A stretch of 39,301 bases of DNA, from the NCBI GenBank assembly GCA_009377575.1, contig WHTU01000027.1, forward strand, positions 1 to 39,301, given 5' to 3'. Below are positions 14,837-33,176 of the stretch, one piece after another (position 1 is the stretch's first letter; every line of letters starts with the position of its first letter). A program made the translations under genes and the position numbers. The stretch is from Nitrososphaeraceae archaeon (lineage in GTDB: Archaea > Thermoproteota > Nitrososphaeria > Nitrososphaerales > Nitrososphaeraceae). A model generated the notes under the pieces. That model saw only the letters and a list, made by a program, of their open reading frames with translations. It did not search any database and had not been told where the DNA came from.

Positions 14837-14896
14837 TATAATGATTACCTAAAAATATGGCGACCACAAACACTGCTGGCAGTTGAGGCCTTCCAC

Positions 14897-17131: not shown

Positions 17132-17221
17132 CGAAATTAATCTTTATGAATTACCTAGAAATTGAGAATCTACTTTCGTGCAATTACAACTAATCATTAT
17201 CTTCTACTATAGAAATTATCG

Positions 17222-17335: not shown

Positions 17336-17458
17336 TAGTATTATTTGTACTTGCATAATATATTAATATGGCCTTCTTATCTTGGACACTTCTAATAAGA
17401 AAACATGTCGCAGATTGTTTTATACTATTTTCTTATCAGATAAATGTCGATCATCAAT

Positions 17459-17467
17459 ATTTATATT
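17459..17467 (+). promoter_or_regulatory. TATA box of cupredoxin gene
   Basis: ATTTATATT lies 24-32 nt upstream of the ATG at 17491, so the transcript would be nearly leaderless, as is usual in these archaea. Confidence 0.5.
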
Positions 17468-17490
17468 GTATGTAGAACTAAAATCTCTTA

Positions 17491-17967: not shown

Positions 17968-18011
17968 TAACTTCCCTTTTTTGTCATAACAAGCCTACAA
18001 TTTGATTTCAT

Positions 18012-18300
18012 GTGTGGTTAGAGATGCTCACTACTAGTAGATCATTCTTGTATTATGGAGCAGCGGCCAGTACCGGGATTGCTGGTATTTTACATCTTAT
18101 TCTAGTATCTAATGCTATCAATTTCAATATCAATAATGCGATCTTCTTCCTAATTGCCGGCATACTTCAACTGTTCGGGGTAATACCAATGATAAAAAGA
18201 TGCTATAGAAGTATTTCAGATTGCATACATTGTAATATCAGCTGTAATCATAGCTAAGGAGAGAGTCAGTAAGCCTCAAATGACTAAGGAGAAGCGATAA
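18012..18300 (+). CDS. Small membrane protein, apparent frameshift
   Basis: The uninterrupted frame (18012-18257, 81 aa) has two membrane helices (SRSFLYYGAAASTGIAGILH and FLIAGILQLFGVIPMIK) and then an implausible Cys-rich end. If one A is skipped in the AAAAA run at 18194-18198, reading continues in the +1 frame to 18300 as KDAIEVFQIAYIVISAVIIA then KERVSKPQMTKEKR, giving a third helix and a basic tail. That version looks like the true protein (~96 aa). Causes could be a homopolymer indel, sequencing error or programmed slippage. The alternative start is the internal ATG at codon 5. It follows the cupredoxin gene on the same strand. Confidence 0.6.
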
Positions 18301-18635
18301 GCTTCATTTTCTTTGAATCTTTGAAAGAACCTCTTCATAGTGACCTGTTCAAGGTGGTAGTTTATATTTATAGAATTAAGAACAAATATGCATAAACAAA
18401 CTAAGATAATAAAGGAGAGTTTCATGTTAGGACATTATTGAGATCATATGAAAGGGATGGAAGATCCAATGTCAATTACCTTTGCAACATGTGTCATATT
18501 ATCAAATTATGCATGTACAAAACTATATAATAGTTGTACATCTATGAAACTATCATTGCACAATCATTAGAATACTATTATTCGTGATACTGTGAATTAT
18601 TATGCCATGATTTCTTGTTGGTAACTTAAACACCC
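18301..18635. other. Intergenic region with palindrome
   Basis: Convergent spacer, AT-rich, without gene signatures. It contains the inverted repeat at 18513-18541, described separately. Confidence 0.3.
18513..18541. repeat. 8-bp inverted repeat around TATA-like core
   Basis: ATGTACAA (18513-18520) and TTGTACAT (18534-18541) are perfect inverted partners with a 13-nt spacer AACTATATAATAG. A symmetric arm pair flanking a TATA-like core would suit a regulator operator, but no gene starts nearby, so it may just be a hairpin. Confidence 0.45.
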
Positions 18636-18935
18636 CTAACCCTCTTCTTTTTTGTCTATAGCTGCTTCTATAGTCTTCTGCTTTTCCTTGTTAAGTTCAT
18701 CGAGAGTCATAGAATCTGCTGAGATTATAATGCTGCTATTTGCCTCCAGATTTCCTTGAATAGATATAACCGCATACTGTGAATTTCTCAAGATGTCAAT
18801 AGTAGAGTCACTGTTAGAACGTAGTTGGAGTACTAACTCTTCTAATGGAATCACAGAACCGTAATCATCAATGTCAAGCTTAGTTACATTAATCGTTTTA
18901 TTGTCATTATAAATACGATTTACTTTAACTAGCAT
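18636..18935 (-). CDS. Hypothetical small protein
   Basis: 99 aa, not recognised. Starts MLVKVNRIYNDNKTINVTKL, contains a central strand-rich part (AVISIQGNLEANSSIIISAD) and a charged C-terminal helix ending KKEEG. No signal peptide or membrane span. Acceptable composition; isolated gene. Confidence 0.5.
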   Translation of the reverse strand: MLVKVNRIYNDNKTINVTKLDIDDYGSVIPLEELVLQLRSNSDSTIDILRNSQYAVISIQGNLEANSSIIISADSMTLDELNKEKQKTIEAAIDKKEEG

Positions 18936-19483
18936 AATCCATATTTCAATAAAAACACAATCAAACTATTATACGTTAAGGCGATGACGGTAAATAATAC
19001 TACCTTGATTTAAGCAATTAGTAGATACCTGTCTCATCAAGTTGATTGTATAAAAAGACGGGGTGAGACTATAGCCTATGCAACTTTACACGATGACTTG
19101 TATGGATCCACCTAAGGTAGGTGACAATCACGCGGGATACATCGGCTTCAGAAATTCCATTAATATCTCTTCTAAAAGATGATGGAGCAATAAGTGTAGT
19201 CGTAGATCATTGAAATCAATAATTTAGCAACGCACATTAGGTTTGTGTTATTCCGTAGGATTTGTACTTGATACACGATTTTATGATGTGCCATCTGCCT
19301 CTCACCACGTGACTAGTGACGTACATAGATAACAGAAAAACATGGCTAAGAATTTGAGGTTGCAGAGCATTCTAGTATATCGAGGGAAATTTCGCTCAAA
19401 TGTTCACTGAATTATAGGAATGAGTTAAGATAGAGAAAATCAAAAAGAGAGGGGGTCAGTGCAACTTAATGTAGAGAACAAGA
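18936..19483. other. Intergenic region with one coding-like stretch
   Basis: Apart from the remnant at 19069-19206, nothing gene-like was seen on either strand. Confidence 0.3.
19069..19206 (-). pseudogene. Coding-like remnant
   Basis: 46 open codons without a start: STTTLIAPSSFRRDINGISE, then ADVSRVIVTYLRWIHTSHRV and KLHRL before TAG. The helix-like periodicity and composition suggest the C-terminus of a real protein, but I do not recognise the family. Confidence 0.35.
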
Positions 19484-20122
19484 TTATCCTGTTCTGTTTG
19501 TTGTACTTGTCAACGCTTGAAAAAAAGGGACAAACTCAGGTGATGACGGTTCTATTACTCCAAGCTGTGCCAGAAAAGTAAGGTCATCTTGAATCGCTTT
19601 ATGTTCTACTATTTTTCCGTCTTCGCCTACTCTGTATAAATGTACAGCTTCATATGAAATCTTATTGCCCGTGGGAGGAAGGATAAAAAAGTTACCAGTG
19701 TGTGTACCAGTCACATTAATTACGGAAACAACCTTATCATCTTGAGCAATTATTGCCTCTTCGTGATGCCGAAGATCAGGAAAAGCAATACGTAGATTCT
19801 CAACAGTATCTATAAACTCAGAAGGACCTCTAAGCTGTCCTCTGATAGGATCCACTTGAGATTCACGATTGAAATATCGTTCGCTTATGAAGTCAGCAAC
19901 ATTGCTTACATTTCCTGTATTAAATGCATCAATGACTTGCCTAGCAACCTTGATGTTGTTTTCCTCTGTTGTTCCTTGTCCTAATAACTCGTTTGATGGA
20001 ACTGAAGGTATTATGATTGCAAAGGTCATGCCAAACAATAACGTAATAGCGACGAATATACATGATTTATAACACAATTTTACATACCTTTCGCATTTTT
20101 GCAGATTCATAAAACTATGCAA
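19484..20122 (-). CDS. Secreted SnoaL-like/ester cyclase protein
   Basis: 212 aa. A signal peptide or anchor at about 20-45 precedes a SnoaL-like (NTF2-fold) domain at about 55-190. NIKVARQVIDAFNTGNVSNV is the usual first helix, FPDLRHHEEAIIAQDDKVVS and VTGTHTGNFFILPPTGNKIS match the ester-cyclase core, and GKIVEHKAIQDDLTFLAQLG the last strands. Ester cyclases carry conserved His/Asp in the pocket; Asp-Leu-Arg-His-His is present. The export signal is unusual for the family. Substrate unknown. Confidence 0.8.
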   Translation of the reverse strand: MHSFMNLQKCERYVKLCYKSCIFVAITLLFGMTFAIIIPSVPSNELLGQGTTEENNIKVARQVIDAFNTGNVSNVADFISERYFNRESQVDPIRGQLRGPSEFIDTVENLRIAFPDLRHHEEAIIAQDDKVVSVINVTGTHTGNFFILPPTGNKISYEAVHLYRVGEDGKIVEHKAIQDDLTFLAQLGVIEPSSPEFVPFFQALTSTTNRTG

Positions 20123-20230
20123 AGCATATTTTTATTTAAATATTACCGAGAAGTAAGTCAGCACCGTAAGCCTCAGAGGGTGGTATGTATCAGTCAATGA
20201 CATTCTGAATCAACTAAGTCGTTCCTTCTT

Positions 20231-20395
20231 TCATTCTATGCCTGCGTCGCTTATTTGATATTCTCCTCCGCCTATGTCATCAATCCATCCATTCCTTACT
20301 AATGCATCAATATTACTCTGTAAGTCTAAGCCTTCCCAAGCCACAGTCCAGAATCCTTCCCTCTTACTAGATCTCCTGATCTTTTCTATATTGAA
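20231..20395 (-). pseudogene. Winged-helix-like gene remnant
   Basis: 54 residues open without a start codon, between TAA and TGA: KIRRSSKREGFWTVAWEGLD, LQSNIDALVRNGWIDDIGGG, EYQISDAGIE. The ending (LVRNGWI...EYQISDAGIE) looks like the wing and last strand of a winged helix, where a recognition helix is followed by a YxIT/SxxG motif. The N-terminal part is missing. Confidence 0.4.
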
Positions 20396-20465
20396 TTAGT
20401 ATGAAGTATAACACCACTTGTCATCCAAGTATCATTACATAGTTTAATTCTGGATACTCCTTCGA

Positions 20466-21338
20466 ATGCACTATCTTTATAAACACGATTTAGATACGTC
20501 TTATATGATAGAGTCTTTTCAAAAGGCAAAATCTTTAGTCTTAATCTGCTTAGGTATTCTACTTTTCATGGCTTTTGCTACTCTAGAAGATGAGACATTG
20601 ATAATTTCCAACTCATTAGGAGATTCGTTGCCCGTGAACAATACGAATATAGTTCTAGTTCATGGATCTTGGAGCGATGGGTCTATTTGGAGCAAAGTAA
20701 TTCCTATTTTGACTGATGCAGGACACGGAGTTTTAGCAGTACAGCTCCCTCTACGTTCTCTGGGAGAAGATGTCGCTACTGTAGAGCGTGCAATTGAGCG
20801 AATTGGAGGACCTGCCATTCTTGTAGGCCACTCATATGGAGGAGAAGTAATCACAAATGCTGGTTACAATAACCCCAATGTCACAGGCCTCGTTTACCTT
20901 GCCGCTCTTGCTCCTGACGAGGGTGAAACCGGCAATGATTTCTTCGAACGGCTTCCCAATGAAACCTCGAAAACTTTCTTTGAGAATACTGCAGTTGATA
21001 GCGCAGGATTCTTATATTTTAACACAGAAAAATTCCATCAGTCATTTGTTCAAGATATCGACCCAAGAGAAGCAGACATCATGGCTGCTGTACAAAAGCC
21101 GTTCAATCAATCAATTAGTAGTGAAATGTCTGGTACAGCAGCATGGAAACAACTTCCTACATGGTATCAAATATCTGAGAACGACCGTCTTATACCCCCT
21201 GATATCCAGCGACTCTACGCAGATCGGATGAATGCAACCACTCTCTCACTTAACTCTAGCCATATGTCGCTTGTATCACAACCAGAAGCAATTGCTGAAC
21301 TAATCATAAATGCAACAAAAGGAAGTACTAATACATAG
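20466..21338 (+). CDS. Membrane-anchored alpha/beta hydrolase
   Basis: 290 aa. An N-terminal anchor or signal (about 22-40) leads to an alpha/beta-hydrolase domain of the salicylate-esterase/hydroxynitrile-lyase-like group. VLVHGSWSDGSIW carries the oxyanion-hole His-Gly; Ser123 is in LVGHSYGG, Asp240 in ISENDRLIP and His266 in NSSHMSLV. All three catalytic residues are present, so it should be active, outside the cytoplasmic membrane. Four or more NxS/T sequons occur. Substrate unknown. An internal ATG at codon 14 (MIESFQK) would give a more typical signal peptide. Confidence 0.85.
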   Translation: MHYLYKHDLDTSYMIESFQKAKSLVLICLGILLFMAFATLEDETLIISNSLGDSLPVNNTNIVLVHGSWSDGSIWSKVIPILTDAGHGVLAVQLPLRSLGEDVATVERAIERIGGPAILVGHSYGGEVITNAGYNNPNVTGLVYLAALAPDEGETGNDFFERLPNETSKTFFENTAVDSAGFLYFNTEKFHQSFVQDIDPREADIMAAVQKPFNQSISSEMSGTAAWKQLPTWYQISENDRLIPPDIQRLYADRMNATTLSLNSSHMSLVSQPEAIAELIINATKGSTNT

Positions 21339-21456
21339 ATAATGATCCCATCTTAGAAGTACTAAATCAGAAAAACATGCCACATCACTTCCTAAAAAGC
21401 TATGACACGACCTAGACATATCCTATTATCTGCTGGAATGACTTCTGATGAATTAT

Positions 21457-21675
21457 CTAACACTGTGGATCTGGACATGATTGTCGTAAGTAGTAGTACG
21501 TCTGAACTCCTGTGACATTTTTGCCGATAAGCTTTACAGCTGCATCGAGTTCGCTTTGTCGACGGCCACTGATGAACACATACGTCCCCTCTTCGACTAA
21601 TTTCTGTGTCGTGGCAAGACCTATGCCACTATTCCCTCCGGTGATGATAGCAGATTTTCCTTCAAGTATGTTCAT
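21457..21675 (-). pseudogene. SDR oxidoreductase, N-terminal stub
   Basis: 72 aa. The first 58 residues are the start of a classical short-chain dehydrogenase: [20 protein letters not shown] (TGxxxGIG nucleotide motif) and [19 protein letters not shown]. After GVQT the frame runs into unrelated residues and stops. The NNAG, catalytic Ser and YxxxK parts are absent, so the gene is truncated to the Rossmann beginning and inactive. Confidence 0.75.
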
Positions 21676-21900
21676 GATTTTTCCTGTTGTTACTATGATC
21701 TATGTCTTTAACATATTTTCTTTTCCAGCTTGGGAACCATATATCATATTTGATGCGTAAAGTTCTTCCCTCAGAAATCCTTGACTTTAACTGCTCTTGC
21801 TATAGAAGGCGTCCACTATCGCTTAAAGCCGTAAACCTGATCTCAACTAGTTTATGCCGACCAATATTTGACTCTCTGCATCTAATTGTGTACTTCCTTA

Positions 21901-23304
21901 CTACTTTATATTATGTAATAACTTATTAGAAATGTAATGTGATAGATCTATCTTGTCTTCTCCAGGTATATGTGCTATTTCAAATCGTTCTTTGTCTTTA
22001 AGAAGACTGACTGTGGCATCGATACCCAACTTTGTAGTTAATAAGTTAACCTGATCGCTAGAAGGATCCAAACTGGAGCCCTTTGCATTAGGAATTATTA
22101 AGAGTCCTTTGTCTGCTTGACATCGGGTAGAGATAGCATATTCGATTGCGACTGGATCAGTCGGATCGATGTCATCATCGACTATTATAGCCATCTTTAA
22201 TGATGGATGATTTGCGAACGCGGCCAACAGTGCGTTCTTAGATTCGCCTTCTAACCGTTTATGAATTTGTATTATTGCGGTTAACCAATTACTACCTCCG
22301 TCTGATAAGTGAACTGTCTTAGTAGAAGACACAACATTTTTTACTCCTTCATATAATTTTGCTTCCACAGGAAGTCCCATTAATAATCGGTGCTCAGAAA
22401 ATCCTGGTAAAATATCTTGAAAGAAAGCATTATTTCTAAATCTGATTTTATCAAGTTCGAATACAGGTTGTTGTCTCTTTATGTCATATGTCCTGAGCAT
22501 TTCTACCATCCATTCCTCTGCAGTTCTATCTTGAAGGATTCTGCCCTCAAGGATAATTTCGGAGTAGGTGGGAACATATAGACCTGAATAGTCACTTTTA
22601 CTTAATGAAAGCTCCCCTTTAAGCAGGGAATTTGCTAAAATCATTTCATCAAAACCATATGCAGCCTGATATGCAGAAGCTATACTAATTGCAGGATGAA
22701 CACCTACCACAATCGTAACTTTCAAGTCCTCTCCATGTTCCTTCGCAAAGGAATAGCATTTATGAAGATGACGTCCCTCTACCATTCTTATTACCATATG
22801 ATTACGATCTAATCTAAGAAAACGATGAATTGACGAGTTTTGGTTTTCTTTTTCCTGATCTTTTGCGTAGACTATTGAAGATGTAATGTAATGACCTGCA
22901 TCTTTTTCAAAATGCATTACGATAGGTAGATCATTCAAGTCTGTTGAAGAATTGTCATGGAACAGAGGTTTATCTTCAATAGTTTTCTTATAAGAAGCGT
23001 TTGTCAGTGATCCTATAATATGAGAATGAATTAATCCAGGCTCATCAGTCCCAAGAGCTAATGAAAACCTCTTTCTAGTACCCAAGATATTAGTCACGAC
23101 GCGCATTCCGCTTCCTTCTACATGTTCGAACAATACGGCTTGTTTTCGATCGAGCTTACGTGAAATAGCTGCTAACTCAAACATAGGGCTAACTTGTTTA
23201 TCTATTTTAAGAAGGTCATTGTGCTGCTCTAACAAGTGTAGAAATCCATGAAGATCGGATTTACTGTACTTAGGAGTGGTATATTCGCTGATCTTATTTG
23301 TCAT
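21901..23304 (-). CDS. UbiD-family decarboxylase
   Basis: 467 aa, the length of the prenylated-FMN-dependent UbiD family. Signature regions: FEHVEGSGMRVVTNILGTRK, VIRMVEGRHLHKCYSFAKEH (Arg and His near the metal/prFMN site), KVTIVVGVHPAISIASAYQA, and YSEIILEGRIL. The usual EGPFGE loop with two catalytic Glu reads EEWMVE here (Glu263 and Glu268), keeping the E-x4-E spacing but changing everything between. Archaeal UbiD proteins include anhydromevalonate-phosphate decarboxylase, but the divergent loop prevents that assignment. It needs a UbiX flavin prenyltransferase, not present in this window. Confidence 0.85.
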   Translation of the reverse strand: MTNKISEYTTPKYSKSDLHGFLHLLEQHNDLLKIDKQVSPMFELAAISRKLDRKQAVLFEHVEGSGMRVVTNILGTRKRFSLALGTDEPGLIHSHIIGSLTNASYKKTIEDKPLFHDNSSTDLNDLPIVMHFEKDAGHYITSSIVYAKDQEKENQNSSIHRFLRLDRNHMVIRMVEGRHLHKCYSFAKEHGEDLKVTIVVGVHPAISIASAYQAAYGFDEMILANSLLKGELSLSKSDYSGLYVPTYSEIILEGRILQDRTAEEWMVEMLRTYDIKRQQPVFELDKIRFRNNAFFQDILPGFSEHRLLMGLPVEAKLYEGVKNVVSSTKTVHLSDGGSNWLTAIIQIHKRLEGESKNALLAAFANHPSLKMAIIVDDDIDPTDPVAIEYAISTRCQADKGLLIIPNAKGSSLDPSSDQVNLLTTKLGIDATVSLLKDKERFEIAHIPGEDKIDLSHYISNKLLHNIK

Positions 23305-23497
23305 ATTTTTTGTATTCTATATCACTTTTGGTTAATATAAAGTCTGGACAAGGAACACTTTAGTGAATTGTCGTATCCATCTATCCTTAATTATCATTCA
23401 ACTCTATATATTGTGCCAATGGGATTAGTTGAATAAAAAAAGAAAAGGGTAACGTATTACCTTAGATCCTGATCTTCCAATTCGCCTAGGTGTCTGG

Positions 23498-23936
23498 CTA
23501 TTCCACGTTAAGCTTATACGTAATATCCGCAAAGTGAGGATTAGTACCAGGTGAGGTAAGCGCACCAGTTGGGGTGACACGAATATTGTATGAGACAGTA
23601 TGTTCTCCAGGAGGCAATGGTTTTAGGAATACCGCCCATCCATGACTTCCCGCACGCCATTCACCAGGTGTTTGGCCTGGCTTATGAGTGTCTGATGAAG
23701 ATCAAAATCTTTAGTATACAATTCGGTAACATTAGCTAGGGAATTTACCTGATAATCCAATTCTCCAGATACCAAAGACATCTTTACGTCGAGCTTGGCA
23801 ACAGGAGTACCATCGACCACAACATCCGATCTCATATTTCCAAGATTAGTTACCTCTCTTGCACATTTTGCTAATGGTTCGTTCGCCCCGCCTTAACACG
23901 AATAGTTTCATAGTTTCCAAATTCTGATATTATCAT
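23498..23936 (-). pseudogene. Secreted-protein gene broken by two frameshifts
   Basis: Three frames join into one product. From the ATG at 23936: MIISEFGNYETIRVKAG. Then, in the next frame, ANEPLAKCAREVTNLGNMRS and DVVVDGTPVAKLDVKMSLVS through to LHQTLISQA (about 23680). Then, in the third frame, TPGEWRAGSHGWAVFLKPLP, PGEHTVSYNIRVTPTGALTS and PGTNPHFADITYKLNVE to TAG at 23498. The last block is a conserved domain I associate with thaumarchaeal exoproteins. No signal peptide survives. Indels lie near 23895 and 23680. Confidence 0.65.
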
Positions 23937-23993
23937 AGTATTCTCTCCATACTATTGATAAGTGATGATGTCGTTATTGGGTGTCAGAGAAAC

Positions 23994-24170
23994 ATGGGTA
24001 AATGGAAATGCCTGTGGTGTTCTAAAGTCCTGGAAGGAGAATCTTTTATGGACCTAGTTGAGGCCTCCATGAGGGAGGAAAGAGGACAACACGTACATGG
24101 CTGGGAAAATATAACTTTAATAGAGGAAAAGCCAGTTGCTGTATTAGAGAATAAACTCTGGTCAGTCTAG
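23994..24170 (+). CDS. CxxC/HxH small protein, copy A
   Basis: 58 aa from the ATG at 23994, chosen because it matches the start of the paralog at 27438; an upstream TTG would add 13 unrelated residues. MGKWKCLWCSKVLEGESFMD carries Cys6/Cys9, and HVHGWENI carries His33/His35, a likely four-ligand zinc site. Between them is a charged helix. No function known. The upstream 50-60 bp are also shared with copy B, so the duplicated unit includes its regulatory region. It is divergent from the broken exoprotein gene. Confidence 0.7.
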   Translation: MGKWKCLWCSKVLEGESFMDLVEASMREERGQHVHGWENITLIEEKPVAVLENKLWSV

Positions 24171-24311
24171 TCCTCCATTATTTTATTTTGTTTATTGCCT
24201 TTGGATCATGATTTCAGCATTACAATCCTGATAGGTGCGTGATCTGCTGTATCTATTCATGATGAACTTCAATTATGTGATTAGCACCCAGTACAGATCA
24301 AGCGAATACAT

Positions 24312-24665
24312 ATGGGTGATACATTAGGAGATGCATACGATACAGACCAGCCTGTTCCAAATCAGCTTGATTACGACAAGTGGAGTCGTGGCTTCAAAAG
24401 ACAATTGCATTTCTGTGGCGAATCCAGTTCAAAGATACTGATGGTGATAAGCAATGAAGATTGTGATTCGCCTGCTGCACCAGCATGCCTTGATACTAAT
24501 AGTGATAAAGTACCAGACTCAAACGACAACTGTTTTCACCCTAACCCCGAGCAAAAAGATACTGACAGTGACTGTATAGGCGATCTCTGTAATCTTAATC
24601 CCAGAATCATGTTAGTACTAGCTCTTGCTCCTACTGAAGAAGGTCAAACGGGTTCAGATGGCTAA
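24312..24665 (+). pseudogene. Thrombospondin type-3-like Ca-binding fragment
   Basis: 117 aa. The central part, DTNSDKVPDSNDNCFHPNPE then QKDTDSDCIGDLCN, is two thrombospondin type-3 repeats (DxDxDGxxDxxDNC...NPxQxDxDxDGxGDxC) that bind calcium and use paired Cys. Some ligand positions are altered (N for D, K or C for G). There is no signal peptide and the rest is low in structure, so this looks like a fragment of a larger exported protein, although the frame is open. Confidence 0.5.
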
Positions 24666-24735
24666 CAAACTTTTTTGGCCATGAAATAGTCTAAATATTT
24701 GAGATGTGCAGTGCAGGGGAGGGAACCTCAGCAGA

Positions 24736-24984
24736 ATGTCATCTAGCCCAGAAGAAAGGGAAAGAAGATTAAACAACCTCGGTAGCTCATTCGGTCGCGA
24801 TCTAGATGTAGAGATAAGACGGGAAAAGATCACTCTAAGGGAAAAGTTAACTCAAGACTTTGAAAGAGAAATAGCCTTAGCTGAAGCATGCGCTAGTCGT
24901 GATGATTTCGCAGAAGCACTCTACCACAGAGTTATGGCTGACATGGCTCATAGAATATTAAAAGAACTTGAGATGGATGGATAA
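24736..24984 (+). CDS. Small coiled-coil protein
   Basis: 82 aa from ATG 24736 (a GTG at 24706 would add ten residues). Nearly all helical and charged: MSSSPEERERRLNNLGSSFG, then EIRREKITLREKLTQDFERE, ending EALYHRVMADMAHRILKELE. No Cys, no membrane segment. A truncated paralog of the C-terminus lies at 5143-5262, so the family is repeated in this genome. Function unknown. Confidence 0.6.
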   Translation: MSSSPEERERRLNNLGSSFGRDLDVEIRREKITLREKLTQDFEREIALAEACASRDDFAEALYHRVMADMAHRILKELEMDG

Positions 24985-25064
24985 TGATTACTAGTAATAG
25001 CGTGGACGCTAGTTTATGTTAGCCGTATAAAGCTATTTCATATATAGTGCTAGATCTTTTTATC

Positions 25065-25157
25065 ATGAGGAGGGCACAATGGAACGGAAAGTGGCCTTTC
25101 CATTCTAATAATGAAGAAGAAACTACCTACTTACCTATATCACTAGTGATATTTTAA
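25065..25157 (+). CDS. Possible 30-residue microprotein
   Basis: Short frame MRRAQWNGKWPFHSNNEEET ending YLPISLVIF. A TATA-like TTCATATATAG lies 18-29 nt before its ATG, and a hairpin-forming GGAAAGTGGCCTTTCC falls inside the frame. Composition is unremarkable; it could equally be noncoding. Confidence 0.25.
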   Translation: MRRAQWNGKWPFHSNNEEETTYLPISLVIF

Positions 25158-25285
25158 CACTTTCACGCTCAGGACTTTGGTAGTCTAATTAGTAACAGAA
25201 GGGGGAAGGGCGGCCAGGAAGAAATCCTAGTAACTAGATATTGCCAAAGATACCCATCAGTCATCGGTTCACAGTAGTATAACAC

Positions 25286-25519
25286 CTAATCCTTGTCTAG
25301 TTTCTTTTGAATGCTATTATTATGCATCTGCCTGCCATACGCAATTTCGTACTGTTGATACATTATTTCTTTCGTATTTTCAGCTAAATCCTTAAGCTCT
25401 GCTTTGCCATTATTACCATTATCTAGCTCATCAGATCTTTTCGCATCTGCCATACCTAGTGATTCTAGCTCATTTATCCACCAACCATAACTTTCTGGAT
25501 GTTCATCGATAGTAGCCAT
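25286..25519 (-). CDS. Hypothetical small protein
   Basis: 77 aa, soluble and charged, not recognised. It begins MATIDEHPESYGWWINELES, has an Asn/Gly linker (LDNGNNGKAE), and a C-terminal helix ending NSIQKKLDKD. No Cys and no signal peptide. No same-strand partner nearby; lies inside the decayed island but is itself intact. Confidence 0.5.
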   Translation of the reverse strand: MATIDEHPESYGWWINELESLGMADAKRSDELDNGNNGKAELKDLAENTKEIMYQQYEIAYGRQMHNNSIQKKLDKD

Positions 25520-25641
25520 AGCGGCGAGCTTTGTACACTAAACTATAAAAACCTTCAAACGTTTAAATAAGTTATTTTATTCTTTAGATCTTTTTCTTTA
25601 AGTTACAGCGGATTATTATTTATCCTGAGAACTACTTTCTG

Positions 25642-25999
25642 CTATTCGGCCTTCGATTTCGACATTTCTCTGAAAAATGCTTCTCCAGCCTTTCTAACTT
25701 CATCTGGTGATAGATCCATAGAATACCTTATATGACGAACGGTAACTTGTCTTCTATTTCTCAACTCTTGGAACGCATACAGCATAACGATAATCTAAGT
25801 GCATCCAGTGTATCATGATATACTGAATTAGTCTTATCTAATGCATATGGGTCATTACCTTTATTCTGTGCGGTTTTCAATGAAATTATAACCTGTTCAA
25901 ATTGCAGGTGTTCTTGTATTCATGCAAGAAACCCCAACACAATCTTAGTAGTAGCAAATTCATTCAAGTCTTTAAACGCTTGCTTTAGTTTCCGTTTTT
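25642..25999 (-). pseudogene. Conserved helical protein, frameshift plus nonsense
   Basis: Two frames and one internal TGA combine as RKLKQAFKDLNEFATTKIVL GFLA, stop, IQEHLQFEQVIISLKTAQNK, GNDPYALDKTNSVYHDTLDA LRLSL, then after a 1-base shift LYAFQELRNRRQVTVRHIRY and SMDLSPDEVRKAGEAFFREM. The restored ~115 aa helical product is coherent. A second, more decayed copy of its middle is at 26303-26426. Family unknown to me. Confidence 0.6.
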
Positions 26000-26060
26000 A
26001 CACTTACTTTACCTGGCTTCTCTTGCTAACTTAAATAGTTTCCTTAGTAAACATATAGTG

Positions 26061-26207
26061 ATGACTAATTCGCAAAAAACAAAAGAAAAAATCAAGGAAA
26101 AGGTAGCTCTGACAGATGACCCATGCTGTGATGACTCATGTTGTGCAGATGGTGGTCCTTCAGTTAGTTCTGAAAGTGAAGAAAGAAGAGGAGGTGGGTG
26201 TTGCTAA
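26061..26207 (+). CDS. Cys-pair microprotein, 48 aa
   Basis: MTNSQKTKEKIKEKVALTDD is followed by PCCDDSCCADGG, a polar linker, and GGGCC at the very C-terminus. Three vicinal Cys-Cys pairs in 48 residues, set among Asp, are a strong soft-metal or metalloid-binding pattern. A TTAAATAG element about 24-31 nt upstream gives promoter support for a near-leaderless mRNA. No family recognised; too short for most gene finders. Cytoplasmic, as there is no signal peptide. Confidence 0.55.
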   Translation: MTNSQKTKEKIKEKVALTDDPCCDDSCCADGGPSVSSESEERRGGGCC

Positions 26208-26302
26208 AGAAAGTATTGGTTGAAATAAAACTCTAATGCTGGAGCTTAATCTACTTCTCACGCATGACAAAGCTATCCTTCTATGTTCTAGAAGTTACTG
26301 GT

Positions 26303-26426
26303 TAGTAGCGGAATGCATGCAGCACAATAACAGTCGTAGGCTATCCAGCGTGTCGATCTGCTGATTTAGTCTTATCTAATGCATATGGATCATTACCTTT
26401 TATTCTGTGCACTCTTTAATGAAATT
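26303..26426 (-). pseudogene. Second, more decayed copy of the 25642 family
   Basis: Shares the ~65-bp block encoding GNDPYALDKTxS with 25642-25999 and continues, after indels, as DTLDSLRLLLCCMHS. Nucleotide identity between the copies is high over the core, then stops exactly at 26426, where the tRNA-like sequence begins. No start or stop context survives. Confidence 0.5.
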
Positions 26427-26498
26427 TGAGTAGAATTGGTATTGGGGTAAGGCCTACAGATCTGTAATCCTTCTCAGTGTTCGATTCCTGACTACTCA
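26427..26498 (+). tRNA. tRNA-like sequence, probably a pseudo-tRNA
   Basis: 72 nt bounded by perfectly complementary 7-nt arms (TGAGTAG and CTACTCA) in acceptor-stem position. Just before the 3' arm is a T-arm: TCAG-t-G TTCGATT CCTGA, a 5-bp stem and TTCGATT loop if one inserted T is removed. A GGTAAGG resembling a D-loop is present, but D and anticodon stems pair poorly (TACAGATCTGTA). No CCA is encoded. I read this as a decayed tRNA or tRNA-derived attachment site rather than a working tRNA. Confidence 0.35.
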
Positions 26499-26921
26499 CT
26501 CTCTTTATGCTAATTCACTTATTGCCAGGGCATGGTTTACTAGTTTGAGTAATCTGTATTATGCAAGATCTGTGATAGCAGCTTTCCCATCAGTCCCATA
26601 CGGGTCAGTTAGATTCTACAGACTAAGCTTTATTACATAATTTAATATTGCCAGGCTCTTTTAAATGAGTAATTAAATTAGTCGATTCGGACACAAGTCA
26701 CACTCATTATGTCCATATAATCGGACATAACCAACTGCTAAGAATTAAATCGTTTGGTCCTTCTTCTACAAGATATGGTATAATCCCAAATGGTAATAAA
26801 TGGATGTTCCAAGCCATCTATGGAATTAATGCCTTGGCAATAGCAACGGTACTCTCTCCCTCGCTGGAAAGTATTACAATATCTTTTATGATCTTTAGAT
26901 TATAGTGCACTGTGCTCCGTA
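26499..26921. other. Intergenic region with inverted repeat
   Basis: No gene seen on either strand. Contains the operator-like inverted repeat at 26707-26730. The last 30 bp before 26922 hold an AT-rich TTTAGATTATAG that may be the promoter of the zinc-ribbon gene. Confidence 0.3.
26707..26730. repeat. 8-bp perfect inverted repeat
   Basis: TTATGTCC and GGACATAA flank an 8-nt AT-rich spacer ATATAATC. The geometry fits a dimeric winged-helix operator overlapping a TATA-like core; equally it may be a hairpin. Another TCGGACA occurs just upstream at about 26687-26693. Confidence 0.45.
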
Positions 26922-27074
26922 ATGCCCTGTCGAAATACATGTACAAGAATAGGTTCAAGTTTTAGATATTATAACACAGGAATAAAGTATTGCAGAAGGT
27001 GTGAAATATACCTTTTTAATGATGGGTATATATGCCGTTGTTGTAAACGTCCTCTGCGAACTTCACCAAACTAG
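26922..27074 (+). CDS. Small zinc-ribbon protein, 50 aa
   Basis: MPCRNTCTRIGSSFRYYNTG then IKYCRRCEIYLFNDGYICRC and CKRPLRTSPN. The CRRC and CRCC knuckles 14 residues apart form a rubredoxin-like zinc ribbon, and RYYNTGIKYC...RPLRTSPN is a pattern I recall among very numerous small proteins of soil Nitrososphaeria. The extra CRNTC at the N-terminus may add a third metal pair. Complete from ATG to TAG, no frameshift. Likely nucleic-acid or protein binding; function unknown. Confidence 0.65.
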   Translation: MPCRNTCTRIGSSFRYYNTGIKYCRRCEIYLFNDGYICRCCKRPLRTSPN

Positions 27075-27180
27075 AGAAGAGGTAAGGAAAATGCACACCA
27101 ATCGATACCTAGAGATTTGATCAAATAAGAATCCTTTACCCCATGTCGTGTTCAATGATGATTTTGCGATTATCCCCTAG

Positions 27181-27381
27181 CTATCGTTCCCAGAACTCTA
27201 CTATCTTTACTTTCTTCTTCTTATGCCTGGTAGCTCCCCTATTACTATCTCCTATTTTATTGGTGGCTTCACTATGCATATGCAACCCCATTCGTGCTTT
27301 AGATATTTTTGCCTTATGTTCTGCTGTGAATACATAGCAGCATGCAATAGTTTGAGAGTTCCCTAATCCTGATATTATCAT
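27181..27381 (-). CDS. Stand-alone NUMOD3-motif small protein
   Basis: 66 aa. Residues ~20-52 (AEHKAKISKARMGLHMHSEA then TNKIGDSNRGATRHKKKK) match the NUMOD3 motif, a DNA-binding repeat normally attached to GIY-YIG or HNH homing endonucleases (HKxKISxAxxGxxHSEETxxKIxxxxxG). No nuclease domain is present here or beside it, so it is a relic or a small DNA-binding protein. Its first ~12 residues (MIISGLGNSQTI) resemble the start of the broken gene at 23936 because the upstream DNA is duplicated. It is divergent from copy B of the CxxC/HxH gene. Confidence 0.5.
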   Translation of the reverse strand: MIISGLGNSQTIACCYVFTAEHKAKISKARMGLHMHSEATNKIGDSNRGATRHKKKKVKIVEFWER

Positions 27382-27437
27382 AGTATTATCTCCAAACCAT
27401 TGATAAGTAATAATCGCTATAGCGTATCAGAAATAGC

Positions 27438-27620
27438 ATGGGTAAATTGAAATGCCTGTGGTGTTCTAAAGTGTTGGAAGGAGAATCTTTTATGGATCTA
27501 ATTGAAGCGTCTCGAAAAGAGGAAGGCGAGCAACATGTACACGGCTGGGAAAATATCACTTTAGAAAATGAAGAAGTAATTGCAACTGCTATATTGAAGA
27601 CTAAACTAACTGCGGTATAG
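27438..27620 (+). CDS. CxxC/HxH small protein, copy B
   Basis: 60 aa, about 75 percent identical by eye to copy A at 23994 over the first 41 residues: MGKLKCLWCSKVLEGESFMD, Cys6/Cys9, and HVHGWENIT with His33/His35. The C-termini diverge. The shared block extends about 60 bp upstream of the ATG (TGATATTATCATAGTATT and CATTGATAAGT are in both). Probably a zinc-stabilised mini-domain; function unknown. Confidence 0.7.
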   Translation: MGKLKCLWCSKVLEGESFMDLIEASRKEEGEQHVHGWENITLENEEVIATAILKTKLTAV

Positions 27621-27851
27621 TCTTACTTTATTTTATTATCAACTATTAGAATGTTCTTTCAATGATTTAGTTGTTTCCTTGTTTTTAAACCAATCTCAAT
27701 GCCTATTTAGAATATGCCTTGCAATTGAAACCAAAAAAGTAAGGTACCAATTTTAGGTACATTTCCTGAGCATGAACACTTACAGGTCCAAACGATGAAA
27801 TAGAAAAAAATAGGTTTAGTTGCATTCACTACTTGTGAATATGAATGCGAT

Positions 27852-27970
27852 TTATGGTGTCATTGCTGGAGGAGTTACCATTCCACTTCCAGCCATATCC
27901 GAACCAGTCATATTTCCTTCTGTATAATTTCCTCCATCTGTGGAGGCAGCTGCTTTATTAGAGAATAAAG
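27852..27970 (-). pseudogene. C-terminal remnant of a secreted protein
   Basis: Open frame without start: SNKAAASTDGGNYTEGNMTG then SDMAGSGMVTPPAMTP and TAA. The Met/Gly/Thr/Pro-rich tail resembles the low-complexity ends of thaumarchaeal exported proteins. Everything upstream is replaced by sequence of the CxxC/HxH family, so this is a 3' fragment at a recombination junction. Confidence 0.35.
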
Positions 27971-27984
27971 TGGTGTCAGTTTAG
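27943..27984 (+). pseudogene. CxxC/HxH module, copy C (3' end only)
   Basis: Thirteen codons, EAAALLENKVVSV plus TAG, correspond to the end of copy A (PVAVLENKLWSV). The similarity continues past the stop codon: TAGTCTTCCCTTAATTTATC here against TAGTCCTCCATTATTTTATT downstream of copy A. This is a third copy reduced to its 3' end. Confidence 0.5.
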
Positions 27985-28180
27985 TCTTCCCTTAATTTAT
28001 CTTGGTTATTATCATTCCATCTACTGCTTAGATTCCTCTTCAGAAACTCTACCGTCAATAAGATCTATGATGAATAACCACATAAGTAAATAATAGGCTC
28101 CCTCTCATGGTTACGACTCTTAAATTAGTCCCAAATCAATGAAAATGATATATAATAGTATCCCAGTTGTGATATAGAGT

Positions 28181-28390
28181 GTGAAGGGTTTAACTAATCT
28201 TTGGCGGCCAAAAATATTGATATCAGAAAGTGGGGAATATCTCTTTTATTCATGCTCCAATAACAGCAAAATATTATTTACTTTAATGGATAGAAGCGGC
28301 AATATAGTTAAGAGTGAGGAATTACCTTTGACTTTGGAATGCTTTCTTAAGGCAATGAAGAAGGTGGGATACAAAGCCATTTGGGATTGA
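28181..28390 (+). CDS. Hypothetical small protein, GTG start
   Basis: 69 aa starting at GTG, supported by a TATA-like GATATATAATAG 23-34 nt upstream. MKGLTNLWRPKILISESGEY, then LFYSCSNNSKILFTLMDRSG and ECFLKAMKKVGYKAIWD. Strand-strand-helix pattern, soluble, no metal motif. Not recognised. Confidence 0.5.
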   Translation: MKGLTNLWRPKILISESGEYLFYSCSNNSKILFTLMDRSGNIVKSEELPLTLECFLKAMKKVGYKAIWD

Positions 28391-28673
28391 ACTCCCACAT
28401 AAGTAAACAACCAGGAGAGGGGGCTGAAAGACGAAAACCTATGAACTGAGGAACATTTAACCCCTCTCCCTTACAGACTTATGTACAATCGTATTGTCGC
28501 AATGGTCCCAGCGTGGCAGCAAATAGGGCATAATGAGGCCATTGAGGCAGGTACCACACTATGCCCTATTGTGAAAGTTGGTTATTTTGCCTCATTGTGA
28601 AATGAGACTGTAGTATTATAGTAGTTCTGGATATTCTTAAGCATTCTACAAATGTTGTACATCACATTTTTCC
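28391..28673. other. Intergenic region with nested inverted repeats
   Basis: No coding frame seen. A structured block at 28522-28596 is described separately; the flanks are AT-rich and featureless. Confidence 0.3.
28522..28596. repeat. Nested inverted repeats, 11 and 8 bp
   Basis: AATAGGGCATA (28522-28532) pairs perfectly with TATGCCCTATT (28560-28570), and AATGAGGC (28532-28539) pairs with GCCTCATT (28589-28596). The arms compete, so two alternative hairpins are possible. The block has no coding frame and could be a structured RNA, a recombination site or a terminator pair. Confidence 0.5.
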
Positions 28674-28823
28674 TTATTCTTCATCCCTTTCGTTCTTAAC
28701 CCCTGAATCATTATCTTCCTCTGGTTCCGCTTCTTCCTGTATGTTATCCTCTCCTAGTGGTGGTATCTCTTCTTGTAGTATGTCCGCTACCATTTGCAGG
28801 TACTGAGTGGGATTTGGTCCCAT
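28674..28823 (-). CDS. Small acidic protein or 3' gene fragment
   Basis: 49 aa from ATG 28823: MGPNPTQYLQMVADILQEEI, PPLGEDNIQEEAEPEEDNDS, GVKNERDEE. The open frame extends upstream to ~28867 as KCTTWAAAATGATY, which reads naturally into MGPNPTQYL, so the gene may once have been longer at the 5' end. An amphipathic helix is followed by a very acidic tail. Family not recognised. Confidence 0.4.
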   Translation of the reverse strand: MGPNPTQYLQMVADILQEEIPPLGEDNIQEEAEPEEDNDSGVKNERDEE

Positions 28824-28898
28824 ATACGTAGCTCCTGTTGCCGCTGCCGCCCAAGTTGTACATTTAATACCTAATTAACACGGATTAATCAGCAGCGC

Positions 28899-29195
28899 AT
28901 GACAACACTGATGAATAAATTAAGAGAGGAAGAGGATAAACTAAATCTAGAGCTAGAAGAGTCACACGGAAATTATGAAATAATGAAGGCGGTATTTGAA
29001 AAGCGTATTGACCTTTTCAACCGCTTCCTTAAGGAGGAAAGTTTATCTGAGCTAGATAGACTTAGGCTGGAAAATAAACGTGAGTGGAATAAGTCACATT
29101 TACTATCATTAATAATAAACGAAGAAACGACTACTAAAATAAGAGACCTTCTGAAGCGGGTGTATCAGTTAGAAAAGGCTAATGGACTAGAATAG
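28899..29195 (+). CDS. Coiled-coil hypothetical protein
   Basis: 98 aa, almost wholly charged helix: MNKLREEEDKLNLELEESHG, then AVFEKRIDLFNRFLKEESLS and KIRDLLKRVYQLEKANGLE. Two predicted coiled-coil segments separated by a short break. No Cys, no signal. It is intact within the decayed island. Function unknown. Confidence 0.6.
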   Translation: MTTLMNKLREEEDKLNLELEESHGNYEIMKAVFEKRIDLFNRFLKEESLSELDRLRLENKREWNKSHLLSLIINEETTTKIRDLLKRVYQLEKANGLE

Positions 29196-29771
29196 TTAAT
29201 AATGGTACCGCATTGGTAACATTACTTCACGAATGACAGTCGTATATATCTTATGAGAGATTTGATTGTGTTAGAAATCTAGTCTAGGAAGTCCAAAATG
29301 GAAAAGGACTTTGTTACTCTTGAACTAGTAACAATTTGTAACATGTAACATTCTAATATAACTATGTTATATATCTAGCTATATGTCAACGTCAATACCA
29401 GAATCGGTAGAAAACTGAGTTGTCATACTTAGAAGATCTAAGTTAACAGAGCTACTTATCATTTACATATAGCAGATATACCTTCTTTCTACTGTTGATA
29501 TCATTAATTCTTCAATTCTTTTTGTCGTATCCTTCTCTTTGTTGTGAATTTTTTTAATAGTGGATCGTCTCCGCATGGTTTGATAGTATTATCTATAGTC
29601 TTCCTCGTCAGATAAATCTTACTTTTACACTTTCTAGCGTAACTAGCCTGTATATCTTAGTCCACTATTTGCTTCCCGGCGGTAAGCTGATGCTCTCGTA
29701 TGTAGTTATGATAAATCTGATATCCGGTTAGTATCGGAGTTGTCTTTAGATGTAAACCGAATATTTCTTAG
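29196..29771. other. Intergenic region, weak coding traces
   Basis: A perfect TGTTACT...AGTAACA inverted repeat (8-nt loop) and TGTAACATGTAACA direct repeat lie near 29311-29350. On minus, 29504-29656 is open without a start and reads QASYARKCKSKIYLTRKTID then NTIKPCGDDPLLKKFTTKRR; it may be a degenerate zinc-protein gene. Nothing firmer. Confidence 0.3.
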
Positions 29772-29897
29772 CTAAAAATCGAGTTCCCATGGATTAATGC
29801 AATAAAATTCTGCTTCATTGTGACTTGAAATTTGGTTGCATTTTGGACAATTCTCCGTTATATCTTCATGGGCCTCTTCAATGTCAGGACACGCCAA
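29772..29897 (-). CDS. Possible small zinc protein, TTG start
   Basis: 41 codons open from a TTG: LACPDIEEAHEDITENCPKC then NQISSHNEAEFYCINPWELD and F. CPKC plus upstream and downstream single Cys could make a zinc knuckle. There is no ATG, so it relies on a TTG start or is a gene remnant. Composition is protein-like. Confidence 0.35.
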   Translation of the reverse strand: MACPDIEEAHEDITENCPKCNQISSHNEAEFYCINPWELDF

Positions 29898-30388
29898 TCT
29901 CTTTCAATAGTGCAATAAGGAATCAGTTTAAGGTTAAGGCTACCAGTTTGTATTTAGTTATAGATTAAGCAGCTACGTTTCATATGTTGAATGTTTGCCA
30001 AATAACTCATTTATCATCTTTTGCTGTTGTATTATTAATGCCAGACACATCGATTCAAATGAAAAGTTCTTTTCCCTACTGTATTTCATAATTAAATCAG
30101 ACAGAACATGTAAACTAGATATTTATGTGAACCTTCTATTGTTACTGATAATTACATTAGTATGTATTTATTTGAAATATCTAGGTATCACATTAAGTAT
30201 AACTATGTGATAGAAGAAGGATCACCAGGCCTTTTTGAAGTATCGAAACTTGATACGTCATATTTGCCTTTAATTCATTTAATATGAGAAAGTCACATTT
30301 GACCGTACCAATATTATGAGATCAACTATAAGGCTGAAACTTTCCTTATACTATACAAAGGTCTATTTGTTCTAAACTTGATTGGTAG
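29898..30388. other. Intergenic region, AT-rich
   Basis: A 71-codon plus frame at 29995-30210 is rich in Ile, Leu, Phe and Cys, as expected from AT-rich noncoding DNA, and is not accepted as a gene. No remnant was recognised in the rest. Confidence 0.3.
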
Positions 30389-30600
30389 CTGTCTTTTTCA
30401 ACTTCAAGCTCTGTATCACGTAATAAATTAAAATGCATTAAACAAGAATTAATTAGTTTCGCACAAAAATATTCTAGAACTGCTGAAAAAGAAGGCTCTC
30501 CTCTTTTATACTGTTACTATCAAAGTGAAACTACAACAGTTAAAATTAGAGCCGAACAATCAGAGGCTCAAGCAGACAACTTTTCCATCCCCATCTCTAT
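30389..30600 (+). pseudogene. Coding-like remnant without a start
   Basis: Open frame from just after a TAG at 30386: RNKLKCIKQELISFAQKYSR then TAEKEGSPLLYCYYQSETTT and VKIRAEQSEAQADN. This part has real-protein character (helix, then a strand pair LLYCYYQSETTTVKIRA). Beyond about 30590 it overlaps the minus-strand gene and reads as antisense. No ATG, hence probably a 5'-truncated relic. Confidence 0.35.
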
Positions 30601-30867
30601 GAACTGTATCTCATTTTCAACAAGTGGAAACTCTATCCCATCTAGTCCTAGTCTCTTTTTAACAGTCTCTCCTGTTTCCTGTAAGTCCTTTTTGTATAAT
30701 TCTAGGGCGGTATATAGCAGATCTCTGTTACTTATTGGTGGATAGTTTTCTTCTCTCCATTCTTGTATTATACGACTAATTTCAGCCTCATACTTTATTA
30801 GATCTCGTCTTATGAAATGGTTTAACCTAATGATGTCGTTATTTGAATTGCTTTCACGAGTGAACAT
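30568..30867 (-). CDS. Hypothetical helical protein
   Basis: 99 aa, soluble. MFTRESNSNNDIIRLNHFIR, then AEISRIIQEWREENYPPISN, RDLLYTALELYKKDLQETGE and a C-terminal NEIQFIEMGMEKLSA. The ISNRDLLYTALELYKKDL helix resembles dimerisation helices of small DNA-binding or antitoxin-like proteins, but there is no toxin next to it. Its start lies within the 5' edge of the zinc-ribbon pseudogene on the other strand. Confidence 0.5.
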   Translation of the reverse strand: MFTRESNSNNDIIRLNHFIRRDLIKYEAEISRIIQEWREENYPPISNRDLLYTALELYKKDLQETGETVKKRLGLDGIEFPLVENEIQFIEMGMEKLSA

Positions 30868-31105
30868 CAGGCTCTCGAAACACTAGAAGAGGTTAGTCCA
30901 CAGGAGCAAAAAGAAGAGTTAGTGTTGTCTGAACTAGACACGGAAAATAGAATGTCCTAAATGTAATGAGATTATGGAGCTAGACTCCAAGTTCGATGAA
31001 TTAGTGTGCTCCTGTGAGAGATGTAGCTTCTTCTCTGCAAATTTGACTAGAGAGTCTGCTGTTCCTTTTTCGAAATTCAATGAGTTCGGTAGTAAAATAC
31101 GATAA
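30853..31105 (+). pseudogene. Zinc-ribbon paralog of 6638 gene, frameshifted
   Basis: First frame: SEHQALETLEEVSPQEQKEE then LVLSELDTEN, aligning with ESQTLEVLEETSLPPDQKED in the intact protein at 6638-6874. After a 1-base shift near 30945 the second frame gives KIECPKCNEIMELDSKFDEL, VCSCERCSFFSANL and a longer tail to TAA at 31105. CPKC and CERC match the intact CPRC and CENC. No start codon; the 5' edge overlaps a minus-strand gene. Confidence 0.65.
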
Positions 31106-31208
31106 GCAGGAACTTGATCTGATGAGTTTATTTACCATGCCATTTTTGATATATCACTCACATAAGAGATAATATATCTAACAGTATGACACAACTTCTT
31201 GATAAAAA

Positions 31209-31613
31209 ATGTTAGGAGAGCAAATTGAAGACCTAAAAGGCAAAATAATCGGTCAAAGAGTAGTTGATATCGAACCGCCTACGATAGAAACAAGTGTCTC
31301 AAGTAAAGGCAGTATTAGGGGAATAGAAGTGACAGAGATGCTCACCTTTGTGGGTACACCGACAACATCTGAAGGAGTACTTCATGGCAAAGGAGGTGGT
31401 ATAATAATGGCGGGCGGATCGGAAGTTGCAACCTTTACTGGCGAAGGGATAGGAAGATTTGGTTCAGCGGGAAGCAGTAGCTGGCGTGGTTCCGTTTTCT
31501 TTAACACGTCGTCAAAAGGCAAACTATCTTTTTTGAATAATCTGATTGGATCATTTGAAGGTGAATTTGATTCAGAGGGGAACTTTACCCATCGGTCGTG
31601 GGAATGGAAATAA
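31209..31613 (+). CDS. Beta-barrel-like conserved protein
   Basis: 134 aa. Starts MLGEQIEDLKGKIIGQRVVD, then alternating strands with GTPTTSEGVLHGKGGGIIMA, ATFTGEGIGRFGSAGSSSWR and GSVFFNTSS, ending EGEFDSEGNFTHRSWEWK. I recall this Gly-rich barrel pattern, with a terminal WEWK, in archaeal and bacterial proteins of unknown function. No signal peptide. An AATATATCT element at about 31171-31179 is the likely TATA box. Confidence 0.7.
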   Translation: MLGEQIEDLKGKIIGQRVVDIEPPTIETSVSSKGSIRGIEVTEMLTFVGTPTTSEGVLHGKGGGIIMAGGSEVATFTGEGIGRFGSAGSSSWRGSVFFNTSSKGKLSFLNNLIGSFEGEFDSEGNFTHRSWEWK

Positions 31614-31682
31614 ACAGATCCTAATTACCTGGGCATGGGACTGATCTAGTCTTATGGAACTAGAGTTTCCCCCAACCTTCAC

Positions 31683-33176
31683 TTAATTTGACCTTTCTAT
31701 AATCCTACCATTAGAAATGACTGCGTAAATCCGCTTAGTATTCTCTATAGCTTCAACAGGATTTGCGGACAGAATTAGGATATCTGCTTGTTTGCCAAGT
31801 TCAATAGTGCCTGTCTGATTTATCAAATCAAGAGCCTCTGCTCCATTCTTGGTAGCAATCTTCATAACATCCGACGTATTAATACCTGCCTCGACCAACA
31901 ATTCTAGCTCATGATGCAGACTTTCTCCTGGAACAAGTTCAAAGTTCGGTATATCTGTACCGGACAGAATTTTTACTCCGCTATCATGCATCATCTTTGT
32001 AAGTCGTAAGACCTTATTCCAACGCTGTTCATTTTGGGGATCCGCAAAACCTTGTCTAACAAAAATTGCTTCATATACGCTCAAAGTAGGATCCACTGGC
32101 ATCTGGTTCTGGACCAAGCTTTCTATCATATTTCTAATCTCAGAACTATTAAGGTCCACCAGATCAAGCCATAGCGAATGGTCAAATGGACCTCCACCAG
32201 TACGATTGAAGATTCTCTGCTTATCTTCTGGCAATAAAAAAGGGGATACGGGAACTCCATGTGTTAGAAAATCAATTCCAAGATTTGCAGCATCAGTCCA
32301 AGATGTAAGATAAAGATGTCCAATAACCTTTATTCCCTGACGTTGAGCTTCATCTATTGCTGCTTTTACTAAATCCGGTTTCAATCCAACGTATAGCTTG
32401 ATGTAATCTACGCCTGCTGCCGCCTGATGACGGACTTCCTCCCTGACCCCTTCCTCAGTAGTAAATTGTTTTTCTACAAATGGTACAGGAAATTCAGGAG
32501 TATTTAGAAGTCTACCAGCTGTAAAAACTTCAGGTCCACTTATAGTTCCATTAAGGACCTCTCCTCTTAGGCGCACTGTTTCATTAGTAGGGCCCCCAGG
32601 ATTTCTGACCGTCGTAACTCCGTAATCTAAAAGCATACCAAGCATATTTTTGGACATAGCCTGGTCATAAGAGTTCTTTCGTACTCCTGCTATATGAGCA
32701 TGCATATCGAAAAGTCCAGGCGTAGCATATTTTCCAGTTAGGTTAAGAACTCTTTCGTTTGATTGTGATCCATTGCTATCATTATTTAATGTTAAATTAT
32801 CACGAAAATTAGTCTGATTAGTGATTGCAACTATTCTTTTGCTATCGTCAATAACTATTACTGAATCAGCTTTTTGGGGGCCACCATTTCCATCGATTAA
32901 TGTAGCACCATCCAATACCAGTGTTTCATTTCCATTACCTGGATTCAGTGACGATAGAGACTTGTTGTCAAGGGCATTGAAATTCACGGCCCAGATATCA
33001 GCATCATTTGTTGTCTCTAACAACGAAAGTATGTAAAATGCAACTATGAAAATTGAAGGTACACCAATGAGAATTGTGTTCATAATCTTATTCTTCATAG
33101 TAAACTCTTCTGATTTATCAACTATTTCACAGATGATATGAGACAAAAATAAGGTGGCTGATAATGAAATTGACAT
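31683..33176 (-). CDS. Exported amidohydrolase, imidazolonepropionase-like
   Basis: Metal-dependent hydrolase of the amidohydrolase superfamily. Metal and catalytic residues, numbered from the 497 aa form, are His159/His161 (FDMHAHIAG), Lys260 (VDYIKLYVGL, normally carboxylated), His287 (VIGHLYL), His306 (DFLTHGVPV) and Asp408 (LSGTDIPNF). All are present. The N-terminus has a membrane segment; the internal ATG at codon 27 (MKNKIMNTILIGVPSIFIVA, position 33098) makes a more typical signal or anchor. Several NxS/T sequons suggest surface location. Substrate unknown; this subgroup includes prolidase- and imidazolonepropionase-like enzymes. Confidence 0.88.
   Translation of the reverse strand: MSISLSATLFLSHIICEIVDKSEEFTMKNKIMNTILIGVPSIFIVAFYILSLLETTNDADIWAVNFNALDNKSLSSLNPGNGNETLVLDGATLIDGNGGPQKADSVIVIDDSKRIVAITNQTNFRDNLTLNNDSNGSQSNERVLNLTGKYATPGLFDMHAHIAGVRKNSYDQAMSKNMLGMLLDYGVTTVRNPGGPTNETVRLRGEVLNGTISGPEVFTAGRLLNTPEFPVPFVEKQFTTEEGVREEVRHQAAAGVDYIKLYVGLKPDLVKAAIDEAQRQGIKVIGHLYLTSWTDAANLGIDFLTHGVPVSPFLLPEDKQRIFNRTGGGPFDHSLWLDLVDLNSSEIRNMIESLVQNQMPVDPTLSVYEAIFVRQGFADPQNEQRWNKVLRLTKMMHDSGVKILSGTDIPNFELVPGESLHHELELLVEAGINTSDVMKIATKNGAEALDLINQTGTIELGKQADILILSANPVEAIENTKRIYAVISNGRIIERSN

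Follow-up and report, generated by a model that had tools for sequence, protein, structure and literature searches.

The locus analysed here lies within a stretch of 39,301 nucleotides (the window) from a Nitrososphaeraceae archaeon and has a UbiD-family gene as its left neighbour. At 23994-24170 (plus strand, stop codon included) is copy 1, the gene of a 58-residue microprotein of the form C-x2-C ... H-x-W; at 27438-27620, on the same strand, is copy 2, a 60-residue paralog in which L replaces W4 and which occupies a long branch of the DNA tree. A preliminary description of this DNA had proposed these two intact ORFs, with Cys6/Cys9 and His33/His35 in each, and both are present in that form. 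It had also proposed about 41 near-identical residues; by our own count 36 of the 42 positions agree over residues 1-42, and tblastn aligns 56 residues at 73%. The third element, at 27944-28021 (plus strand), is the 3' remnant of a further copy, of which only the last codons and the DNA past the stop are left, as had been surmised.

A repeat search divides the similarity into three parts: an upstream repeat (23901-23969 against 27346-27414, 86% identity), a gene-body repeat (23993-24139 against 27437-27583, 80%) and a tail repeat that joins copy 1 to the remnant (24130-24207 against 27944-28021, 77%). The first is part of about 92 bp of upstream DNA that copies 1 and 2 have in common (23901-23993 and 27346-27437, plus strand), each with a TATA-like TTGATAAG, at 23955-23962 and 27400-27407, respectively; the last includes a T-rich 3' tail at 24171-24207 (plus strand), a probable terminator. 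The upstream repeat contains 59 matches in 69 positions and the tail repeat 60 in 78; the corresponding maxima in dinucleotide shuffles are 39 and 41. Because both repeats so far exceed the shuffles, chance AT-rich similarity, which could have accounted for the roughly 60 bp of upstream DNA first reported as shared, is excluded. The remnant is also recovered, at E 9e-11, in a DNA search of the source genome.

Each intact copy had been thought to face a divergent partner on the minus strand, the unit acquiring new partners as it spread with its promoter. Copy 2 does face an ORF of 66 residues (27181-27381, minus strand), and its NUMOD3 motif holds up (PF07460, E 1.5e-4, 22.0 bits against a cut-off of 20.4); its first codons are antisense to the copied promoter and the remainder is unrelated, NUMOD3-like sequence. 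The frame opposite copy 1 (23871-23936, minus strand; MIISEFGNYETI...) had been read as the start of a broken exoprotein, but it ends in a stop after 21 codons without joining the exoprotein-like fragment, and we judge it not to be a gene. In the orthologous copies of Nitrososphaerales archaeon TH5895 the antisense frame closes after 17 and 12 codons, and the longest antisense frames of TH526 and TH5896 do not include the MIIS frame. Only in copy 2 does the frame run on, into the NUMOD3-like tail. Since the antisense frames of copy 1 and of its TH5895 orthologs close early, the acquisition of partners is not supported; joint duplication of gene and promoter is the part of the proposal that stands. 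The shared MIIS..GN..TI codons are the duplicated promoter read on its antisense strand, a by-product of its copying. These observations also bear on the idea that the genes are components of toxin-antitoxin or defence systems, each facing its partner. Small size, swings of copy number and a hypervariable location would all suit such a system, but the antisense frames are not conserved, there is no conserved neighbour, the flanks of paralogs are unrelated, and copies 1 and 2 have no Pfam or NCBIfam match above cut-off; we consider this reading very improbable.

The module had been counted as present three times. In the source genome (a Nitrososphaerales assembly of 3.89 Mb in 380 contigs) a protein search finds 13 strong copies of the subfamily, two carrying an in-frame stop, together with several N- or C-terminal fragments; a DNA search recovers the same set. 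A profile that takes in divergent members, of the MRWICIYCN...NFTDFIKQSD...YHAWRLL type, enlarges the family to 26-30 members. The copies are dispersed over many contigs and in both orientations, and fragments and stop-containing copies are common in the family. Two source-genome loci (L008, at G000:C358:15470, and L013, at G000:C361:8216) have intact frames with ACG or CCT as the expected start codon; they may be decaying or may use another start. The orthologs of L008 in TH5896 and in the metagenome-assembled genome plot3_rep3_bin15 carry ATG at that position.

The family proteins, 43-60 residues long, are built around the C-x2-C, an aromatic F, a short helix and H-x-W. An alignment of 32 members leaves C6, C9 and H35 as the sole invariant residues, F18 and W37 coming close. 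A whole branch (...PVHAWEN...) lacks His33, and, because several paralogs retain H35 as their sole histidine, the CxxC/HxH pattern that the preliminary description took as the hallmark is not a signature of the family. AlphaFold models show a strand, the CxxC turn, a second strand, a helix and a last strand immediately preceded by H35; the models are of moderate quality (mean pLDDT 70, pTM 0.49), residues 1-20 reaching a pLDDT of about 80 and those past 45 scoring low. A sequence search of the PDB and two fold searches gave no significant relative, and no PDB fold scored below E 1. Pfam likewise offers no significant match to the family, only a weak hint of zf-BED (PF02892; best E 0.018) in two of 12 wider-family members. 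Assignment to zf-BED or to C2H2 fingers would call for two cysteines with two conserved histidines, or His and Cys, and a profile match; the family differs in that H35 is its one conserved histidine.

A metal site is plausible, and to that extent the earlier suggestion of a zinc microprotein cassette survives; since only three potential ligands (C6, C9 and H35) are conserved, zinc binding stays a prediction. A one-metal knuckle would be the simplest reading of the modelled fold: a beta-knuckle/helix unit might hold a single metal ion by these three residues, with a fourth ligand possibly supplied by a partner chain or by a non-conserved residue. As outlined for Haloferax (PMC10716476, PMC11241148, PMC6562870), zinc micro-proteins are familiar in archaea, and HVO_0758 and the other C(P)XCG proteins of Haloferax volcanii resemble the present family in being shorter than 70 residues, in their metal-knuckle CxxC and in occurring many to a genome. 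In contrast, the H. volcanii proteins described there carry two C(P)XCG motifs, and the family has one C-x2-C, followed by Ser, Asn or Phe instead of Gly, and a single conserved His-x-Trp. What is one sequence family in 15-30 copies here is, in H. volcanii, many different proteins, and homology is not claimed. The likeliest role, tentatively put forward, is that of a small adaptor or regulator with nucleic acid or protein as its target, in which case the many copies would supply different contexts of expression.

The family is restricted to one genus, apart from two weak partial matches. Matches occur in five of 61 genomes of relatives, all five of the same genus as the source, with 8-30 strong matches in each of the five genomes of the genus; relatives holding only single copies, which would have spoken against a duplicating module, are therefore not what is seen. 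A draw of genomes at family level returned the same five genomes and the two weak partial matches outside the genus, a draw at class level gave one positive in 150 (the source genome itself), and a scan of 84,980 species found 18 loci, all in four same-genus assemblies (Nitrososphaerales archaea TH5895, TH5896 and TH526, and plot3_rep3_bin15). The viral, plasmid and phage collections that were searched hold no copies.

For several copies the position is shared by two to four species and the flanks are colinear. Copy 1 of the window is orthologous with loci in TH5895 and TH526, and L008 with loci in three relatives; further orthologous loci are L061, L062, L066 and L046, and L069 pairs with L070. 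Between copy 1 and its TH5895 orthologs dN/dS is about 0.1; most of the tested pairs lie at about 0.04-0.2 and one at 0.33, and pN is smaller than pS in 55 of 55 source-genome paralog pairs. The reading frame is under purifying selection, as in a selected protein-coding family, and the orthologous loci across species, taken with the low dN/dS, mark these as old, constrained genes. In the DNA tree copies group by locus; one clade of six (support 96/97) consists of source-genome copies only, and TH5895 carries a pair that is 93-97% identical at different loci. It follows from the orthologous loci, the source-only clade and this young pair that copying is both old and continuing.

What is copied is the gene together with some 60-110 bp of promoter. 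A TTAATAAG/TTGATAAG element, which we take to be the TATA box, lies at about -28 to -43 in most copies, and in many a 'GTATTAGAA'-like text precedes the ATG. One could suppose that the upstream DNA is not copied with each duplication and has merely been kept by selection for co-regulation; the recurrence in many copies of the TTAATAAG-like element around -40 and of the 'GTATTAGAA'-like text would fit, as would the thinning of similarity outside the transcription unit. But copies 1 and 2 are also alike in their non-core bases, as far as -92 and at 86%, and in the young TH5895 pair the similarity reaches -105 at 93%. This sharing beyond the core argues that the upstream DNA was copied, and selection on a promoter as the whole explanation is improbable.

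The ends of the copied unit are ragged. Between paralogs the start of homology varies from roughly the ATG to positions beyond -100, and its end from the interior of the ORF to about 35 bases past the stop codon. The members of the young TH5895 pair end differently on each side, and each has kept some ancestral flank that is missing from its partner: the match of copy B to L002 and L012 extends further upstream, that of copy A to copy 1 of the window further downstream. The two flanks of the young TH5895 copy occur joined in no relative's genome. Read by eye, the edges of the young duplicates show no terminal repeats and none of the target-site duplications whose presence around the unit had been raised as a question. 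Thus the constant termini, inverted repeats and target-site duplications of a transposable element or MITE are not found, and the part of the zinc microprotein cassette proposal that is not supported is the cassette with defined ends. A GGCGGCC-containing upstream motif was considered as a recombination site and set aside: its near-matches, 21 against 14 for a reversed-pattern control, do not greatly exceed that control, and the motif is therefore taken as inherited upstream DNA. The exact AAGGTYTGGCGGCC occurs twice in the source genome, each time upstream of a family copy.

A non-autonomous mobile cassette, with promoter and gene moved in trans by a recombinase or transposase, would explain why gene and promoter always make up the unit together, and dispersal in both orientations over many contigs, a conserved promoter that travels with its gene, copying that is still going on (the TH5895 pair and the source-genome-only clade) and the NUMOD3-like ORF adjoining copy 2 are all in its favour. 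Set against these are homology ends that differ from pair to pair, young duplicates devoid of a visible terminal inverted repeat or target-site duplication, many copies that have stayed at orthologous loci in several species, and the empty viral, plasmid and phage collections. If a mobile process had imprecise ends, its traces would resemble those of segmental duplication; all the same, we hold a mobile cassette to be decidedly unlikely. Our preferred reading, which we consider probable, is that a family of predicted zinc microproteins, restricted to the genus and strongly expanded, evolves by birth-and-death duplication. Ordinary short segmental duplication, by illegitimate insertion of fragments of 0.2-0.4 kb that happen to catch a complete small transcription unit, would generate the copies, which would then be kept, diversified or lost. 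On present evidence what is new is the family itself, with a copy number unusual for an orphan, and the mechanism of spread is ordinary. Expansion of Nitrososphaerales genomes has been attributed to gene duplication, with 77% of gene gains in the phylum, in the study that also provided the TH5895, TH5896 and TH526 genomes (PMC7603488); for the same group of genomes, the present analysis documents the promoter-plus-microprotein unit and its hypervariable location. In this orphan family, expanded to 15-30 copies in one genus of soil archaea, such duplication is seen to act on individual small transcription units, and the question of why some archaea retain many micro-zinc-proteins can be put to the test on it.

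The unit duplicates within rapidly changing DNA situated between conserved genes; here, copy 2 and the remnant are found in a hypervariable segment (25101-30860), about 51% of which has a DNA paralog elsewhere in the source genome. The segment amounts to 5.8-7.2 kb and is missing from the locus in two relatives. TH5895 keeps the order UbiD, copy 1 and window 30861 onward, with 2.5 kb of other sequence where the window has 5.8 kb (25100-30861), a join that is inferred since it requires two contigs overlapping at copy 1. In TH5896, 43 bp separate copy 1 (to 24216) from window 31419 onward. The duplicated content of the segment includes other small Cys-rich genes. For comparison, by our own tally, variable 14867-21557 has about 42% of its DNA repeated elsewhere in the source genome and conserved 21557-23300 none (0%); conserved 12600-14867 reaches about 29%, and the contrast between variable and conserved DNA is for that reason a tendency only. 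It is conceivable, if unlikely, that an unknown process copies small, complete transcription units (promoter, microprotein ORF and T-rich tail) to other places in the genome and in this way builds the hypervariable segments of the genus; each cell would then have a large and rapidly renewed repertoire of related metal-binding microproteins. Archaeal 'dark matter islands', which contain up to 22% of the genes of Candidatus Nitrososphaera gargensis (PMC4158269), are similar as clusters of narrowly spread, uncharacterised genes. They differ in that they are often integrated viruses, plasmids or defence loci, whereas the content here is dispersed intragenomic duplicates.

Several smaller observations concern the surrounding DNA. 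The stretch at 14867-21557 is itself hypervariable, with 6.7 kb in the window and about 0.7 kb in TH5895. Rfam has no matches in window 23300-32000. A repeat at 26423-26682 contains tRNA-like text (GTTCGATTCC, ending GAGTA...TACTC), with copies of 91-92% on contigs C188 and C122; ARAGORN makes no call there, and it was dropped as a tRNA. The repeat at 25979-26208 contains a gene for a 49-residue Cys-rich protein (26058-26207) with its promoter, dispersed in the genus. It is 95% identical over 230 bp to a source-genome copy on contig C313, the identity ending at the stop codon, and because the adjoining DNA is at 76%, gene conversion may also be active in this region. At 26850-27091 a Cys-rich small gene of the CxxC..CxxC type is present in decayed form; its family is dispersed, and the genus has more than 15 copies. 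Fixed ends were at first apparent for this repeat and for those at 25979-26208 and 30861-31032; on alignment the right end at 27091 proved to be the cut of the window copy, other copies continuing past it, and the ends of the other two are, by extension, treated the same way. Finally, window 30861-31054 and 6746-6871 hold members of a small two-CxxC zinc-ribbon family (ECPRCNEIME...CDNCSFLLKC), which is found in 41 of 70 genomes of the taxonomic family and has nine matches in the source genome.
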